From contig NZ_CP026309.1 in assembly GCF_002906575.1 (NCBI RefSeq), forward strand, positions 2,914,001 through 2,978,000: a DNA stretch of 64,000 bases, given 5' to 3'. Position 1 is the first letter of the stretch. Each line of letters starts with the position of its first letter. A program made the translations under genes and the position numbers. This DNA comes from Salinigranum rubrum. GTDB taxonomy: Archaea; Halobacteriota; Halobacteria; Halobacteriales; Haloferacaceae. The notes beneath the pieces were generated by a model that saw nothing but the letters and a program-made list of their open reading frames with translations, did no database searches and was not told where the DNA came from. Shown in pieces: positions 29,154 through 50,578 of the stretch.

Positions 29154-30227
29154 TCATCGACGTCGGCGTCGGGCGACGCCCCGCCGCCGGATAGGCGGGC
29201 GCTCCGGTGGTTCGACGACTGCGTCGCCCGTCGGTTTCTCGTCCTCGTCGACCGCCCGAACGAACCCGAAGCGACCGAGCACGCGCGCCACAGTCGACCC
29301 GAGGCCCCGTCGCACACGCCGCCCGAGTTTCTTGACGATGGCGACGATGAACAGCGCCCGCTCGAACACGGAGAGCACGCGGTCGGCGACGCCGACGGGA
29401 TTGACCGAGGAGCCGGCGGTCATCGTGTTGGCGCCGGTCGCCGCGAGGGCATCGGAGGCGGATTCCGTGACACCGCCCCCGCTCGGTCCGGTCGCCGACG
29501 CCCCTGAAGACGTTCCCGACGCCGACACCCCTGTCGACGACGACCCCGTGGTCGCACCAGTCGAGCCACTCGCTCCTGCGCCGCTCACACCCGTCGCTCC
29601 AACGCCTGTGCCGGACGTGCCCGTCGCTCCGACGCTTCCAGCGACGACGGCGCCCCCGCCGACCACTTTCGTGCCGGCGACGGCCAGTGCGCCAGCACCG
29701 AGGAGAACGACGGCTCCGACCGCGGCAGCCTGCAGCGGCGACGCGAGCGCCCAGAGCACGAGGCCGACCAGCGCCCAGGCGGTGCGATTGAGGAGGCCGA
29801 CACCCTCGATTCGGACGTCGCCAGCCCTGACCGCAGCCTCGAACGCCGCGGTGCGGTCGGGGGCGTCGGCGATACGGTCGACCGTCGCGGGGTCGGTGAA
29901 CATCCGGACGGTGGCGTCGTCGCGCGGACCCGCCCGGAAGTCGACGACGTGTGCTGCGGCGTCCGTCCGGAACGAGAAACGGGCGACGGAGCCGTCGGTA
30001 TCCGTCACCGTGAGCGTGACGCGCTGGTCACGGGCGAGGTTCCCTGCGGGGCCGAGGTCGACGCCGTCGACCGCCGCGTTGTGTCCGTCGACGATGCGTT
30101 CGAGCGCCGCCGCTGTCTCGGGTGCCCACACCGGTTCGTCCACCTGCGCGACCGCGCCACCGCCGAGCGCCACGCTGACGAGGAACGCGACGACGACGAG
30201 GCGGGGTAGACCCTCCCACGAATCCAT
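29154..30227 (-). CDS. Secreted/membrane protein with Gly/Ser/Thr-rich middle, unknown
   Basis: 357 residues. A signal peptide (LVVVAFLVSVALGGGAVA) is followed by an alpha/beta domain of about 110 residues containing HNAAVDGVDLGPAGNLARDQ, then FTDPATVDRIADAPDRTAAF and VRIEGVGLLNR, which resembles SCP2-like sterol-carrier repeats. Two helices (TAWALVGLVLWALASPLQ; AVGAVVLLGAGALAVAGTK) precede about 80 residues of Gly/Ser/Thr/Ala (SGAGASGSTGATTGSSS), and the protein ends in a basic tail (RPPIRRRGVARRRRR). Function is not known. The ATG at 30227 has CTATATTG nearby as promoter. Confidence 0.7.
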   Translation of the reverse strand: MDSWEGLPRLVVVAFLVSVALGGGAVAQVDEPVWAPETAAALERIVDGHNAAVDGVDLGPAGNLARDQRVTLTVTDTDGSVARFSFRTDAAAHVVDFRAGPRDDATVRMFTDPATVDRIADAPDRTAAFEAAVRAGDVRIEGVGLLNRTAWALVGLVLWALASPLQAAAVGAVVLLGAGALAVAGTKVVGGGAVVAGSVGATGTSGTGVGATGVSGAGASGSTGATTGSSSTGVSASGTSSGASATGPSGGGVTESASDALAATGANTMTAGSSVNPVGVADRVLSVFERALFIVAIVKKLGRRVRRGLGSTVARVLGRFGFVRAVDEDEKPTGDAVVEPPERPPIRRRGVARRRRR

Positions 30228-30382
30228 GTTCTATATTGTCGTGTTCGGTGTTAACTCTGCGTACGGCCTCGAAGCGACCGGTCGAGAGCGTCGGGGCGCA
30301 GTCGTCCGACAGCGACGAGCGGGAGAACGGTCACGGTGAGCGAGCGGGGAGCGCTCAGACACGTGTTATCGCGGATAAACAC

Positions 30383-30389
30383 CTATATC
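30383..30389 (+). promoter_or_regulatory. TATA box of the kaiC-like gene
   Basis: CTATATC lies 22-28 nt before the ATG at 30411, the spacing expected of an archaeal TATA box for a leaderless transcript. This supports 30411 as the start and argues against a GTG at 30336 that would translate through the box. Confidence 0.5.
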
Positions 30390-30410
30390 GGTCGATTTCG
30401 TCACCGGGGT

Positions 30411-31880
30411 ATGGTATCTCTCCCCGACGGTCGGATCTCGACGGGAATCTCCGACCTCGACGACGTGCTGTGCGGCGGACTCATTCCCAGTCGAAGCTAC
30501 ATGGTGAGCGGCGACCCGGGGACGGGCAAGACGATTCTCGGTCTTCATTTTCTGACGGCCGGCGAGGGGGAGTCGCTCTACGTCAATCTCGAAGAGCCCG
30601 CAGAGGAGATCACCCGCAACGCGGCGGCGGTCGGTATCGACACCGACGACGTCACGTTTCTCGACCTGAGCCCGGCCGCCGATGTGTTCGTCGAAGAACG
30701 GGAGTACGACGTGTTCACCCCCGACGACGTGGAGGGGTCGTCGCTGCGGTCGGCCATCGTCGAGGCGGTGTACGACATCGAACCGGCGCGGATGTTCATC
30801 GACCCGATGTCGGAACTACAGCACCTCGCTCCCGACACCTATCAGCTCCGCCAGCAGGTCTCCTCGCTCCTCCGGTTCCTCCGCGAGCAGGACGTGACGC
30901 TGCTTTTCACCACGCAGTCGACGTCCGATGTGCCCGACGACGACCTCCAGTACCTCAGCGACGGGACGTTCGAACTCACCCAGGACGACGAAGGACGGCA
31001 CCTCCGCGTGACGAAGTTCCGTGGGTCCCAGACGCGGGGAGGCGCTCACACCGTCCGCATCACCGACGACGGCATCGTCGTCTACCCCGTGTTGATACCC
31101 GACGGTCACGTGGTCGACTTCCCCGACGAGACGATTTCGGCGGGGATTCCCGAACTGAATCAGCTTCTCGGCGGGGGACTCAGTCGCGGGACCGTCACCA
31201 TCATCAACGGACCGAGCGGGGTGGGGAAGACGACGCTCGGCGCACAGGTGATGAAGGAGGCCGCGGGGCGCGGCGAGCGCTCCGTCATCTACATGTTCGA
31301 GGAGACCACCCGGACGTTCGTCACGCGGTGTACGGCCGTCGACATCCCGGTCGACACGATGGTCGAGCGGGGGACGCTCCGGATCGAGGAGGTCCAGCCG
31401 CTCACCCAGTCGCCGGCGGAGTTCGCATCGATGGTGCGAACGGACGTCGAAGAACGGAACGCGGAGGTCGTCCTCATCGACGGCATCGACGGCTACCGGC
31501 TGTCGATCCGGGGCGAGGACGACGACTCGCTCCACCGCGAGATCGGTGCCCTCTGTCGGTACCTCCGGTCGCGCGGCGTCACGACGTTGCTCGTCGACTC
31601 CGCGGAGACCGTCACGGGCGAGTTCCGGGCGACCCACGGCGGCGTCAGCTACATCGCCGACAACATCCTCTTCCTCCGGTATCTCGAAGTTCACGGGGAA
31701 CTCCGGAAGGCCATCGGCGTCCTGAAGAAGCGGACGAGCGACTACGAACGGGCGCTCCGGGAGTTCCGCATCACCGAGTACGGGCTCAGCGTCGGCGCGC
31801 CGCTGCGGTCGTTACGGGGTATCCTCGAAGGCACGCCGGAGGTCGTCGGGGACGGAGACGCGTGGGATGAGCACCAATGA
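30411..31880 (+). CDS. KaiC-like double RecA-fold ATPase
   Basis: 489 residues with two KaiC domains. CI has Walker A GDPGTGKTILGLHF, the catalytic Glu pair in NLEEPAEEI and Walker B RMFIDPMSEL. CII has GPSGVGKTTLGAQV, the Glu pair in MFEETTRTF and VVLIDGIDG. The C-terminal segment aligns well with cyanobacterial KaiC (FLRYLEVHGELRKAIGVLKKR, then ILEGTPEVV). At the site of the KaiC autophosphorylated Ser-Thr pair the sequence reads VSYIADN, so Ser is kept and Thr is Tyr. The last 14 nt overlap the LOV kinase gene, implying that the two products act together. No kaiA or kaiB is visible. Confidence 0.93.
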   Translation: MVSLPDGRISTGISDLDDVLCGGLIPSRSYMVSGDPGTGKTILGLHFLTAGEGESLYVNLEEPAEEITRNAAAVGIDTDDVTFLDLSPAADVFVEEREYDVFTPDDVEGSSLRSAIVEAVYDIEPARMFIDPMSELQHLAPDTYQLRQQVSSLLRFLREQDVTLLFTTQSTSDVPDDDLQYLSDGTFELTQDDEGRHLRVTKFRGSQTRGGAHTVRITDDGIVVYPVLIPDGHVVDFPDETISAGIPELNQLLGGGLSRGTVTIINGPSGVGKTTLGAQVMKEAAGRGERSVIYMFEETTRTFVTRCTAVDIPVDTMVERGTLRIEEVQPLTQSPAEFASMVRTDVEERNAEVVLIDGIDGYRLSIRGEDDDSLHREIGALCRYLRSRGVTTLLVDSAETVTGEFRATHGGVSYIADNILFLRYLEVHGELRKAIGVLKKRTSDYERALREFRITEYGLSVGAPLRSLRGILEGTPEVVGDGDAWDEHQ

Positions 31881-33531
31881 CCGCGAGTCGCCGTCGGTGC
31901 GACCGCCGACCGCGATGACGGACGCCCCAGCGGACGACCGCCCGTCGAGCGATGTCGAGACCGGGGCCGACGCTGGGAGCGGCGGCGCCGAGGCCGACGA
32001 CTGGGAGGGGGGCGCAGCCGACACGGACGACGAACCGACCAGCCCCACACAGGGAGTCGACCTAGCCGACGGCTCCGCAGGCGAGGACGAACCGCACGTG
32101 TTACTCCTCCTCGGAGCGAACCGGAACCGACAGCTCCTCGCGGAGTTCCTCGCGGGCGAGGCGACCGTCACGGCGACGACCGACGCCGGCGCGCTCACGG
32201 GCGACATCGACCTCTGTCTCGTCGACCGTCAGCACCTCGCGGCGCATCGGGTCGCGATTGCCGCCCAGCGCGAGGCGGTCGATCCGGTGGTGCTCCCGGT
32301 CGTCCTCGTCACGGCCGAGAGTGACGCGCTCGACGATGAGGACCTCTGGACGGTCGTCGACGAGGTGGTCCCGACGCCCGCCTCGAAGCCCCTCCTGCGC
32401 GCGCGGCTCCGAAACCTCCTCGCTCGACGACGGGCGAGCCGTCGGCTCGCGGACCGGGAGGCCGAACTCGCGGTCGCGCTGACCGACCTCCGGGTCCGGG
32501 ACCGCGCGGTGGCCGAGGCGCCGATCGGTGTCACCATCGCCGGCCTCCGCGAGGACGACACCCCGCTCGTGTACGCCAACGACGCGTTCTGCGAGCTGAC
32601 GGGGTACGACCGCGCGGAGATTCTCGGCCGGAACTGTCGGTTCCTCCAGGGGCCGCGAACCGACGAGTCGACCGTCGAGAGGTTGGGTGAAGCGCTCGAC
32701 GCCGCCGAACCGGTGAGCGTCGACCTCGTGAACTACACGCGCGACGGCGAGCAGTTCTGGAACAAGGTCGACGTCGCACCCGTCCGCGACGACGACGGCG
32801 AGGTGACCCACTTCGTCGGCTTCCAGACGGATATCACGACCCGGAAGCTCCACGAACAGCGCGTCGGCGTCCTCAACCGATTCATGCGGCACAACCTCCG
32901 AAACGAGCTGAACATCATCGACGGCTACCGGAAGGCGCTACTGCGCGACGTCGGCGTCGACCACGAGACCGCTCTCGGTCGGATCGGCGACTCCATCGAC
33001 CGCCTCGTCGACCTGAGCCAGGAGGCGAGCCACGTCGATCGAATCTTCAGCGGTCGTCCCGGCGAAGCCGACCGCAGGCCGATCACGACGGTCGTCGACG
33101 AGGTCGTCGAGACGATGCGAACCCGTCACGCGGACGCGACGGTCCACGCCGAAACGCCCGGCGACCCGGCGTCGGTCAGCGCCAGGTCGCTCGTGCTCGG
33201 GTGCGTCGACTACCTGTCGATGCTCCTCGACACGAACGACTGCGAGACGCCCCGCCAGCGGGTGTCCATCGTCGTACGGGTCGAGGACGGCGTCGTCGAC
33301 ATCGCTCTGACCGACGACTGTGGGGGCCTCGCCGAGTCGGACTGGCGCGTCGTCGAGACCGGTGCGGAGACGCCGCTGCGACACACCGACCGCCTCGGCC
33401 TCTGGATCCTCCGGTGGGTGACGACGACGAACGGGGGCGAGTTGACCCGGACGGCCGACGGGACGCTCCACACCCGGTTCCCGGTCCGCGCTCCGACGAC
33501 CGGAGCGGACGAGCACGGCCCCGAGGAGTGA
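31867..33531 (+). CDS. Sensor kinase with receiver-like, LOV (PAS) and degenerate ATPase domains
   Basis: 554 residues. Acidic N-terminus (about 75), receiver-like domain (residues about 76-185, VLLLLGANRNRQLLAEFL, then DLCLVDRQ), coiled linker, then a PAS domain with the LOV flavin motif GRNCRFLQG; Cys near residue 257 would form the photo-adduct. The other FMN contacts are also present: NYTRDGEQFWN and FVGFQTDIT. The dimerisation helix has MRHNLRNELNIIDGYRKAL. The C-terminal ATPase domain keeps DDCGGLAE (G1) and LGLWILRW (G2), but the N-box Asn is missing (YLSMLLDTND), so kinase activity is uncertain. It overlaps the kaiC-like gene. Confidence 0.9.
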   Translation: MSTNDRESPSVRPPTAMTDAPADDRPSSDVETGADAGSGGAEADDWEGGAADTDDEPTSPTQGVDLADGSAGEDEPHVLLLLGANRNRQLLAEFLAGEATVTATTDAGALTGDIDLCLVDRQHLAAHRVAIAAQREAVDPVVLPVVLVTAESDALDDEDLWTVVDEVVPTPASKPLLRARLRNLLARRRASRRLADREAELAVALTDLRVRDRAVAEAPIGVTIAGLREDDTPLVYANDAFCELTGYDRAEILGRNCRFLQGPRTDESTVERLGEALDAAEPVSVDLVNYTRDGEQFWNKVDVAPVRDDDGEVTHFVGFQTDITTRKLHEQRVGVLNRFMRHNLRNELNIIDGYRKALLRDVGVDHETALGRIGDSIDRLVDLSQEASHVDRIFSGRPGEADRRPITTVVDEVVETMRTRHADATVHAETPGDPASVSARSLVLGCVDYLSMLLDTNDCETPRQRVSIVVRVEDGVVDIALTDDCGGLAESDWRVVETGAETPLRHTDRLGLWILRWVTTTNGGELTRTADGTLHTRFPVRAPTTGADEHGPEE

Positions 33532-33609: not shown

Positions 33610-34104
33610 TCACGCCCGGCACGAGAAGTCGTCCGGGTCCAGTCGGGACGAAGTGGGGTACTCCGCCGCGCGGCCGTCCCAGACTGTCGCGCGCGACTCG
33701 GCCGTCGACGCGTCCTCGCTCGCCAGCCGCGCCGTCGACGCGTCCGCCCAGTAGTCGCAGGCCTCGACGAGCGCGAGACATCGCCGGTACTGTCGCTGAC
33801 TCCGGTCGTGGAGGGCTGGACACGACCCCGAGGTCGCCTCCCGGGCGGCGTCGAACTCGCGGGCGGCCGCGTCGAAGCCGTCACGCGCCGCGGCGTACCG
33901 CTCCGCCGCGACGTCCCAGCGCTCGGCCCCGTAGCGGTCGCGCGCGGTCGACCGCGTCGAGTCGGCGCGTCCGAAGGCGTCGACACCGCGGTTGAACGTC
34001 TCGGCGGCGGGTCTGAACTCCCGCGTGTCCTCGCCCGTGAGCGACGAGAGACAGCCCGAGAGGCCGACGGCGACCGTCGAACAGAGCAGGGTTCGTCTGT
34101 CCAT
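33610..34104 (-). CDS. Tat-exported lipoprotein, helical, unknown function
   Basis: 164 residues. The N-terminus MDRRTLLCSTVAVGLSGCLSS has twin arginines and a lipobox with Cys at residue 18, typical of haloarchaeal lipoproteins. The mature part is helical and Ala/Arg/Asp rich (AERYAAARDGFDAAAREFDAAREA), with two later Cys (GSCPALHDR; LALVEACDYW) that could form a disulfide. No family is recognised. The start at 34104 is chosen over an in-frame ATG at 34116 because it fits the signal peptide. Confidence 0.75.
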   Translation of the reverse strand: MDRRTLLCSTVAVGLSGCLSSLTGEDTREFRPAAETFNRGVDAFGRADSTRSTARDRYGAERWDVAAERYAAARDGFDAAAREFDAAREATSGSCPALHDRSQRQYRRCLALVEACDYWADASTARLASEDASTAESRATVWDGRAAEYPTSSRLDPDDFSCRA

Positions 34105-34165
34105 AGCGACAGTCACGCCGAGCGAGCCGATGAATCTTCGTTCTCCCGACCGCTCGGCGAACGGG

Positions 34166-48577: not shown

Positions 48578-50578
48578 TCACTGGAACAGCGTCGTGTGCG
48601 GCCGGACCACGTCGTCGGGGTCGTCGTCGGGATTGAGGCCGGGCAGGGAGACGACGGCGACAGTGCCGGAGGCGCCGTCCGATCCCGCGGGACGGATCTG
48701 GAAGCTCCCGCCGTACCGGGTGACGATCCAGTTGACGAGCCACAGTCCGAGCCCGGTGCCGTGTTCGACCGCCGTCTCGCGGCCGGCCTCGATGACCGAC
48801 GCCTCGACCGGGGGGATGCCGGGGCCGTCGTCCGCGACCACGAGTTTGACGTCGTCGCCGGCCTCCCGGGCGGTCACCGTCACGGTCGTCGGCGGGTCGT
48901 CGGCGTGTCGGATTGCGTTCTCGACCAGTTCCTCGAACGCGCGCGTCAGTTCGGCACCCGCACAGATGCCGCGGCCGTCGGGGAGGTCGACGCGGGACTC
49001 GACCGTCGCGTCGGGCGATAGCTCGTGTGCGTGGGCGGTCACGTCGGCGAGGAGTTGCGAGACGTCGACGTGCGTCGGGTCGCGGTCCTGCCGAGCGATG
49101 TGTTCGAGTTCGCGGACCTGGTCACTCAGCGACATCAAATCCTCCACCGTTTCGTGGATGATGCGCCCGGCGTCGACGTCGGCTCCGTCGAGTTGCGCCG
49201 GGTCACTCAGGAGTTGGCCGTAGCCCTGGAGCACGTTCAGTTCGTTCCTGAGGTTGTGCCGGAGCACGCGGTTGAGCAGTTCGATGAGGCTGTTGGTCCG
49301 GACCCGGTCGGTGGCGTCCTCCTGGAAGCCGACGAAGTGCGAGGCGTCGCCGGCGCTGTCTTCGACCGGCACCACGCGCACGTTGTTCCAGAACGGCGCG
49401 CCCCCCTTCCGGTAGTTGACGAGGTCGACAGAGACCGAGTCACCGGCGTCGATAGCCTCGCGGAGCGTCGCGACGGTCGCCTCGTCGGTCGCCGGGCCCT
49501 GCAGGAGCCGACAGTTCCGGCCGAGCATCTCATCGGTCGAGTAGCCCGTCAGCTCTTCGAACGCTTCGTTCACGTAGACGAGCGGGTTGTTCGGTCGCGT
49601 CGCGTCGGCGATAGTGACGCCGACGGTGGCGTCGTCGACCGCTCTCGTCTTCAGTCGGAGTTCCGCCTCGCGCTCGCGTCGGGCCGTGATGTCGCGCGCG
49701 ACGCCCTGCACCGCGGCGACGTCCTCGTCTTCGACGATCGGCTTGCCGTTGATCTCGATGACGGCCTCGTCACCGTCAGCCGTCACCGCCGTCAGTTCGA
49801 GGTCTCGAACCGGTTCGCCGTCGAACACGCGCTCGAACGCGGCGGTGGCCGCCGGGAGGGACGACGGGGCGATGTACTCCGCGAACGAGTTGCCCATCGC
49901 CTCCTCCGGGGTGTATCCCAGCACCGTCCCGACGGCCGTCGAGACGTAGGTCAGACGGGTGTCGGGGTCGATCTCGAACAGCAGGTCGTACGTCGTGTCA
50001 GCGATGCGCTGGATGCGCCGCTTTTCGGCGCGAAGTCGCTCGTTCTGCTCGCGGAGGGACTGCTCGTGCCGACGTCGTTCGAGCGCCTGACCGATCAACT
50101 GGGCGAGGACTTCGACGAACAACTGGTCGGACTCGGGGAACGGCTCCGCGCGCGGCTCCGTATCGGCGAAGCAGACGGTTCCGTACACTTCCTCGTTGAC
50201 GGTCACTTTCACACCGACGTACGTGTCCAGGCCGAACGCGTCGTATGCGGCCGGAGAAACCGCCGTGGAGGAGGTGGCGTCCTGTACGCAGAGCGCCCCG
50301 TCCTGCTGGATCGTCCGTCGGCAGTACGCTCGGTCGAGCGGGCACGAATCGCCGGCTTCGATCGTCCCGTCCGTTCCGCTGGCCTGGACGGTTCTGATGA
50401 CCTGTCGCTCCTCCGTGATCTCTGTGAGAAACCCGAGACCGACGCCGAGTCGGTCGGTCCCCACGGTGAGTGCACGTTCGACCGCCTCCTCGACGGACCG
50501 GCTCCGGTCGGCGAACGCCTCGTAGACTGCCTGTCGGGAGGACCGATCGTTGCTGGCTGTGGCGCGTTGTTCTGACAT
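48578..50578 (-). CDS. GAF-PAS-LOV sensor histidine kinase
   Basis: 666 residues in order: GAF domain (about 20-165, with GVKVTVNEEVYGTVCFAD), PAS (about 190-310, YDLLFEIDPDTRLTYVST), a LOV-type PAS with GRNCRLLQG (adduct Cys near residue 356), NYRKGGAPFWN and FVGFQEDATD, then a histidine kinase. The H-box is VLRHNLRNELNVLQGYGQLL; the ATPase domain has N-box ELVENAIRHAD, G1 VADDGPGIP and G2 HGTGLGLWLVNW, so it appears active. No membrane helices: a cytoplasmic sensor. Blue-light sensing is inferred from the flavin motif. No regulator partner is adjacent. Confidence 0.93.
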   Translation of the reverse strand: MSEQRATASNDRSSRQAVYEAFADRSRSVEEAVERALTVGTDRLGVGLGFLTEITEERQVIRTVQASGTDGTIEAGDSCPLDRAYCRRTIQQDGALCVQDATSSTAVSPAAYDAFGLDTYVGVKVTVNEEVYGTVCFADTEPRAEPFPESDQLFVEVLAQLIGQALERRRHEQSLREQNERLRAEKRRIQRIADTTYDLLFEIDPDTRLTYVSTAVGTVLGYTPEEAMGNSFAEYIAPSSLPAATAAFERVFDGEPVRDLELTAVTADGDEAVIEINGKPIVEDEDVAAVQGVARDITARREREAELRLKTRAVDDATVGVTIADATRPNNPLVYVNEAFEELTGYSTDEMLGRNCRLLQGPATDEATVATLREAIDAGDSVSVDLVNYRKGGAPFWNNVRVVPVEDSAGDASHFVGFQEDATDRVRTNSLIELLNRVLRHNLRNELNVLQGYGQLLSDPAQLDGADVDAGRIIHETVEDLMSLSDQVRELEHIARQDRDPTHVDVSQLLADVTAHAHELSPDATVESRVDLPDGRGICAGAELTRAFEELVENAIRHADDPPTTVTVTAREAGDDVKLVVADDGPGIPPVEASVIEAGRETAVEHGTGLGLWLVNWIVTRYGGSFQIRPAGSDGASGTVAVVSLPGLNPDDDPDDVVRPHTTLFQ

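Follow-up and report, generated by a model that had tools for sequence, protein, structure and literature searches.

Whether archaea have KaiC-based timing at all, and by which route light would reach it, are questions that are raised directly by a pair of genes in the haloarchaeon Salinigranum rubrum. The pair lies on a stretch of 64,000 nucleotides (nt) analysed here as the window (contig NZ_CP026309.1, positions 2,914,001 to 2,978,000, forward strand), and a first-pass annotation had described it as a KaiC-like ATPase overlapping a LOV sensor protein, a fixed and uncharacterised pairing in which a flavin photosensor would feed KaiC. The open reading frames (30411-31880, 489 amino acids (aa), and 31867-33531, 554 aa), their overlap and their motifs bear out that observation, and the idea that a flavin photosensor acts with a KaiC-like ATPase is well founded, because the pair recurs in other genomes and its LOV signature is intact. 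The interpretation was right on these two counts and wrong in treating LOV as the fixed element; it also missed the kinase-like end of the second protein, the sensor-less and DNA-binding partners of other genomes and the identity of the ATPase with CirC of Haloferax. The features of the pair are these:

30411 to 31880, + strand: KaiC-like double-domain ATPase of the CirC type, 489 aa (two PF06745 stretches; phmmer against solved KaiC)
30510 to 30533, + strand: Walker A of domain 1, GDPGTGKT, aa 34-41 (G37, G39 and K40 invariant in 44 orthologs)
30591 to 30596, + strand: catalytic Glu pair of domain 1, E61 E62 (nearly invariant in the 44 orthologs)
31209 to 31232, + strand: Walker A of domain 2, GPSGVGKT, aa 267-274 (G267, G270, G272 and K273 invariant in the 44 orthologs)
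31299 to 31304, + strand: catalytic Glu pair of domain 2, E297 E298 (E298 invariant, E297 nearly so, in the 44 orthologs)
31647 to 31652, + strand: S413-Y414, at the positions of S431-T432, the phosphosites of KaiC (alignment to solved KaiC)
31867 to 31880, + strand: overlap of the KaiC and partner genes, 14 nt (read from the sequence)
31867 to 33531, + strand: partner protein, 554 aa, with a disordered N-terminus, a degenerate receiver (NT), LOV and a kinase-like C-terminus
32059 to 32481, + strand: NT domain, a degenerate receiver, presumed to dock on KaiC (predicted receiver fold; KaiC-adjacent distribution)
32485 to 32865, + strand: LOV domain, aa 207-333 (sequence matches, flavin-contact residues)
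32635 to 32637, + strand: predicted photoactive Cys257 (GRNCRFLQ motif)
32866 to 33501, + strand: histidine-kinase-like region, DHp and degenerate ATPase domain (weak HisKA; family alignment)
32890 to 32892, + strand: H-box His342 in MRHNLRNEL (sequence; invariant in group A4)
33208 to 33240, + strand: N-box position without Asn, DYLSMLLDTND (family alignment)

The first gene encodes a double-domain member of the KaiC family, with two KaiC (PF06745) stretches (E 7e-69) and a phmmer alignment to solved KaiC (1e-54) that spans both domains. Each RecA-like domain has its Walker A motif and its catalytic Glu pair, as had been claimed, and conservation of both pairs across the orthologs agrees with this. 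Against TIGR02655, the equivalog model of the cyanobacterial clock KaiC, the protein scores 157.5 bits, far under the curated cut-off of 546.25, and of the two clock phosphosites it keeps the serine (S413) and has a tyrosine (Y414) in place of T432, both residues being nearly invariant in the orthologs. The reported lack of kaiB holds well beyond the window, since none of 24 genomes (its own and 23 relatives) has a KaiB match over the family cut-off, and a KaiB-dependent clock was rejected on this ground; KaiA was not searched for.

The second gene had been described as that of a LOV sensor protein. All three reported flavin signatures (GRNCRFLQG, NYTRDGEQFWN and FVGFQTDIT) were found, in a region that matches solved LOV domains at E 1e-32, and the domain combines a GxNCRFLQ motif carrying the photoactive Cys with the two Asn and the Gln at the flavin that mark LOV photoreceptors (contacts N256, R258, Q261, N289, N299 and Q320 are all present). 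However, this domain is preceded by a degenerate receiver and followed by a damaged kinase-like end. Pfam recognises only PAS and a sub-threshold HisKA (18.2 bits) in the protein, with no match to HATPase_c, and an alignment of 98 partners from the survey below resolves four parts, namely a variable N-terminus, the degenerate receiver, a sensor and an output. A full-length partner model (5 sequences) had a predicted local distance difference test score (pLDDT) of 59, which is low confidence, and was used for the domain layout only.

The receiver-like part, NT, is a domain of about 140 aa that Pfam does not recognise. When modelled alone it is predicted, with good confidence, to adopt the fold of a receiver (pLDDT 89; VIA-align Z up to 15.8, root-mean-square deviation 2.3, 128 residues aligned). 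The position of the phosphorylated Asp is conserved; the Lys and the acid pair of receivers are not, and NT is therefore probably not a normal phospho-receiver. The fold-search list contained neither KaiA nor the CikA pseudo-receiver, which counts neither way. At the other end of the protein, the H-box His is present (H342) and an HATPase_c domain with the N-box Asn is not. None of the four species of the genus (the window, WIN, and L061, L062 and L063) has this Asn, and it was lost separately in L109, L110 and L119, while all seven retain the LOV Cys, NT and KaiC; most of the remaining histidine-kinase partners have kept it. A classical two-component kinase is thus unlikely in the window genome.

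Coupling of the two genes had been argued from their overlap of 14 nt (31867-31880), which is correct for the window. The overlap as such varies, since the frame of the L061 partner opens only 14 nt past that of KaiC. What is constant is the tight spacing: 76 of the 84 co-directional pairs have a partner frame that is open at the KaiC stop or no more than 30 nt from it. In the window, open reading frames of the opposite strand flank the pair (29154-30227 and 33610-34116), so KaiC and its partner probably form a two-gene unit, and no recognised response regulator gene adjoins it. A TATA-like TATAT lies about 25 nt upstream of the KaiC ATG (window 30380-30410), a placement that fits, as expected, a leaderless haloarchaeal transcript beginning near 30411.

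Whether the pair is a peculiarity of one genome was addressed by a survey of 147 haloarchaeal genomes with an ortholog threshold of E ≤ 1e-40, which found KaiC orthologs at 102 places in 82 genomes. A direct search placed a partner within 700 nt of KaiC in 98 cases, 97 of them with NT, and an independent whole-genome search found an NT match within 2.5 kb of 97 of the 102 KaiC genes. The pair thus recurs across Halobacteria, and the idea of a one-genome accident is refuted. Nor is NT a common haloarchaeal domain met here by chance, as roughly one copy accompanies each KaiC and there are few others: 105 of its 123 copies adjoin KaiC, against a chance expectation of 0.17, and by genome both occur in 81, KaiC alone in 1, NT alone in 5 and neither in 60 (Fisher 5e-34, uncorrected for relatedness). 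Five of the 18 stray copies adjoin KaiC fragments or short KaiC pieces. We also noticed partner genes beside a broken or shortened KaiC at L202, L205, L206, L208 and L210, which looks like decay or recent rearrangement. Distances between KaiC proteins correlate better with those between their NT domains (r 0.75) than with those between the kinase domains of the same 75 pairs (r 0.46), and 54 of 64 comparisons within genomes that hold two pairs show matching paralogues, although counts of conservation and of co-divergence alike come from non-independent samples. Taken together, pairing, NT distribution, co-divergence and paralogue matching make functional coupling of KaiC and its partner very likely. 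The window genome has such a second pair at L130 (G000:C1:2123000-2135000), whose KaiC is 46% identical and whose partner, of 461 aa, has the receiver fused straight to the kinase with no sensor.

The claim of a fixed photosensor-KaiC pair therefore stands for the pair and fails for LOV, since NT is the constant part and LOV is swapped at least seven times. LOV with its Cys occurs in 39 of the 98 partners; 12 have a LOV-like domain with Pro for Cys, one has Phe, and 46 have something else, including PAS and GAF sensors, or, in 16 partners, no sensor at all, NT being joined straight to HisKA-HATPase with an intact N-box. On a KaiC tree of 99 rows, onto which LOV-Cys, gene order and output type were mapped, the LOV-Cys state changes 9 times, at least 7 of them on well supported branches, output type changes twice and divergent gene order has a single origin, in a clade of 14 members. 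Canonical LOV motifs occur about once per genome, and 29 of the 150 listed lie near KaiC against 0.27 expected. From these tree changes and this excess we conclude that recruitment or loss of LOV has happened repeatedly at the KaiC locus. Outputs are kinase-like in 87 partners, GAF-BAT-HTH_10 in 10 and of another kind in one. The ten with these Bat-type DNA-binding ends belong to one KaiC clade (L069, L073, L077, L082, L083, L084, L086, L087, L088 and L089). Given that the partners of KaiC bring varied sensors, intact kinases or DNA-binding outputs of the Bat type, we propose that it acts as a hub whose input and output can be exchanged.

The same locus has been met before, in Haloferax, under another description. 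In H. volcanii, cirC is the only double-Walker KaiC homolog (approximately 53 kDa) among four cir genes, lies directly downstream of orc2 and adjoins a sensor-kinase gene, 'fixL', annotated as the oxygen sensor FixL; its transcripts cycle in light-dark, and rhythmic cir expression is gone in deletion strains, including that of cirC (Maniscalco 2014, PMC3941300). Genus g28 of our survey is Haloferax, as a named plasmid record of H. larsenii has 99.6% identity with one of its members. The published cirC primers land in the KaiC ortholog of eight g28 genomes with 0-3 mismatches each (0-1 in three), the next gene after KaiC carries GRNCRFLQ or GQNCRFLQ in all eight, and an Orc1/Cdc6 gene immediately precedes KaiC in L112 and L114 (Pfam identification in L114), so that the order here, orc, KaiC, LOV kinase, corresponds to orc2, cirC and 'fixL'. 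By sequence, primers and gene order in sister species, the Haloferax ortholog of the window KaiC is CirC, and we infer from these species that 'fixL' of H. volcanii itself carries LOV. The two loci share a double-Walker KaiC, an adjacent sensor kinase and, in Haloferax, the orc gene directly upstream; they differ in that the published neighbour was described as an oxygen sensor and not as a LOV protein, and in that the g28 partners are longer than that of the window (856-870 aa, with several PAS domains and a recognised ATPase domain). Adjacency of CirC and a sensor kinase is thus already in print (PMC3941300).

We propose that the two proteins form a complex in which the light signal of LOV is passed by contact, through the docked receiver, to KaiC as the hub, a reading that seems to us evenly poised between right and wrong. 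The degenerate receiver at the N-terminus of the partner would dock on the KaiC ring, NT offering the presumed docking surface; blue light would produce a flavin-Cys257 adduct in LOV, the change would travel through the flanking helices to the docked receiver, and the latter would alter the ATPase or the self-phosphorylation state of KaiC, S413 standing at the position of KaiC S431. In the window genus the signal would pass by contact rather than by phosphate transfer, with KaiC as the active enzyme of the pair, and this mode is probable because the ATPase domain of the partner is without the N-box Asn in all four species. The photochemistry is supported by work on a haloarchaeal LOV with kinase architecture, ALovD-1, which keeps the Cys and is photoactive in vitro (PMC12202551). 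We also count in favour of the proposal the light-dark response of cirC (PMC3941300) together with the LOV gene beside cirC in relatives of H. volcanii. More tentatively, an archaeal KaiC might read light directly from a docked flavin photoreceptor, with neither KaiA nor KaiB, as a light-set relay or timer of minimal design, based on a pseudo-receiver that is dedicated to KaiC and has had sensors and outputs swapped onto it repeatedly.

Several observations weigh against light input by contact. The window LOV lacks the second phosphate-contact Arg, having Gly instead (LGEAL versus LRxAL/I or MRAAI), which may weaken its flavin binding, although R258 is kept and the loss is confined to the window protein among its genus mates. 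Thirteen NT copies have no KaiC remnant nearby, and a common neighbourhood with co-divergence falls short of proving contact. Light is not the general input of the family, because LOV is absent from 46 of the 98 partners and its Cys is Pro in 12, and the 16 sensor-less partners point to a flow from KaiC to the kinase where they occur.

The last of these points bears on the strongest alternative, an output arm as in SasA, in which KaiC would signal through the receiver to the output of the partner (kinase or Bat-type HTH) with LOV merely gating by light. Sensor-less partners leave KaiC as their only likely input, ten partners end in GAF-BAT-HTH_10, and SasA has an N-terminal KaiC-binding domain ahead of its kinase; signalling from KaiC to the partner is a real possibility elsewhere in the family, because sensor-less and DNA-binding partners exist. 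For the window, however, we regard this as unlikely, if still deserving attention: the N-box Asn is lost in its genus and in L109, L110 and L119 with LOV and receiver kept, which makes a kinase output doubtful exactly where LOV stays, and a response regulator gene was not recognised next to the pair. Both directions, to KaiC and from KaiC to the partner, may coexist.

The flavin domain could instead sense redox state or oxygen, the Cys being incidental or a redox switch, which we think improbable. Cys-less flavin PAS domains such as NifL sense redox, the dozen Cys to Pro partners mostly keep their flavin contacts, and the H. volcanii neighbour bears the annotation of an oxygen sensor (PMC3941300), but 39 partners, including those of all four species of the window genus, combine the Cys with a complete LOV signature, and one haloarchaeal LOV domain that has this Cys is a bona fide photoreceptor (PMC12202551). 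Among the Cys to Pro cases, ten (L085, L090, L091, L094, L096, L097, L100, L105, L107 and L108) retain most of the Asn, Arg and Gln contacts and are candidates for a redox or oxygen version of the module; L140 and L155 are more distant. That two unrelated regulators merely share an operon, the partner being an ordinary light sensor with its own target, is very improbable, since divergent order in one 14-member clade and LOV partners without KaiC at L201, L203 and L207 are outweighed by the pairing of 97 out of 102, an NT that is nearly always a neighbour of KaiC, a pair that persists in the divergent order, co-divergence and paralogue matching.

Among known systems, SasA has a docking domain followed by a kinase, and CikA is a kinase with a pseudo-receiver. 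The window pair resembles the cyanobacterial KaiC, SasA and CikA in its double-domain KaiC, in combining a presumed docking domain with a kinase-like end and in its pseudo-receiver; it differs in lacking KaiB, in that this domain has a predicted receiver fold where that of SasA is thioredoxin-like, and in holding a light sensor inside the KaiC partner. No photoreceptor is known at the input of the cyanobacterial clock (PMC5520375). Archaeal KaiC-like ATPases have been proposed to be signalling hubs with many input and output domains (Makarova, Galperin and Koonin 2017, as cited in PMC5847659), an idea with which the window pair agrees; the text of PMC5847659, from the same group, reports KaiC-REC fusions in Methanosarcinaceae only and does not mention LOV. 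LOV fused to a kinase-like C-terminus is common to the window partner, bacterial LOV histidine kinases and ALovD-1, and the LOV proteins of Lake Diamante include REC-PAS-kinase architectures, among them forms with Pro or Phe in place of the Cys (PMC12202551). That paper does not mention KaiC, whereas the window partner has a degenerate kinase domain and a KaiC gene beside it.

Taken separately, the hub role of KaiC-like proteins, the LOV kinases of haloarchaea and the adjacency of cirC and 'fixL' are thus already known, and our literature search, which did not cover the neighbour list of the 2017 hub paper, found no paper joining KaiC with LOV in haloarchaea. As far as we can tell, it is new that the CirC locus carries LOV, that LOV has been exchanged there repeatedly, that a receiver-like domain is dedicated to KaiC, and that the kinase domain has decayed in lineages whose partner bears LOV. 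With a LOV gene beside KaiC, also in close relatives of the tractable Haloferax volcanii, the pair offers a testable light input, and as sister species of this laboratory model carry the pairing, a direct test of whether light acts on an archaeal KaiC is within reach. The receiver-like domain in turn is a handle with which to find and sort KaiC partners across archaea and some bacteria.

A contig-wide scan found KaiC at 18 or more loci, with no Haloferax among the matches listed; bacterial bins in it (Anaerolineae, Armatimonadetes and Nitrococcus metagenome-assembled genomes) may be contaminant contigs and were given no weight. Among the matches listed, Hyella patelloides (G+C 0.38), Variovorax, Ramlibacter and others have a KaiC that is 35-56% identical and lies beside an NT-kinase or kinase gene, and plasmids of Sphingobium and Acaryochloris carry KaiC genes adjoining kinase genes. 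Because such neighbours occur in bacteria and on plasmids, KaiC beside a kinase is a wide theme, and haloarchaea have the variant of it with LOV and NT. On the contig of the cyanobacterium Hyella patelloides (L165, 3886-6868), of low G+C, a KaiC with 52% identity to that of haloarchaea adjoins an NT-kinase gene, possibly through transfer between domains. The window itself holds a second LOV protein (48578-50578, - strand, 666 aa), a GAF-PAS-LOV-kinase with GRNCRLLQG, intact N-box and HATPase_c and no recognised NT domain, and in G003, of the same genus, a similar gene lies at about 10 kb from the KaiC pair.

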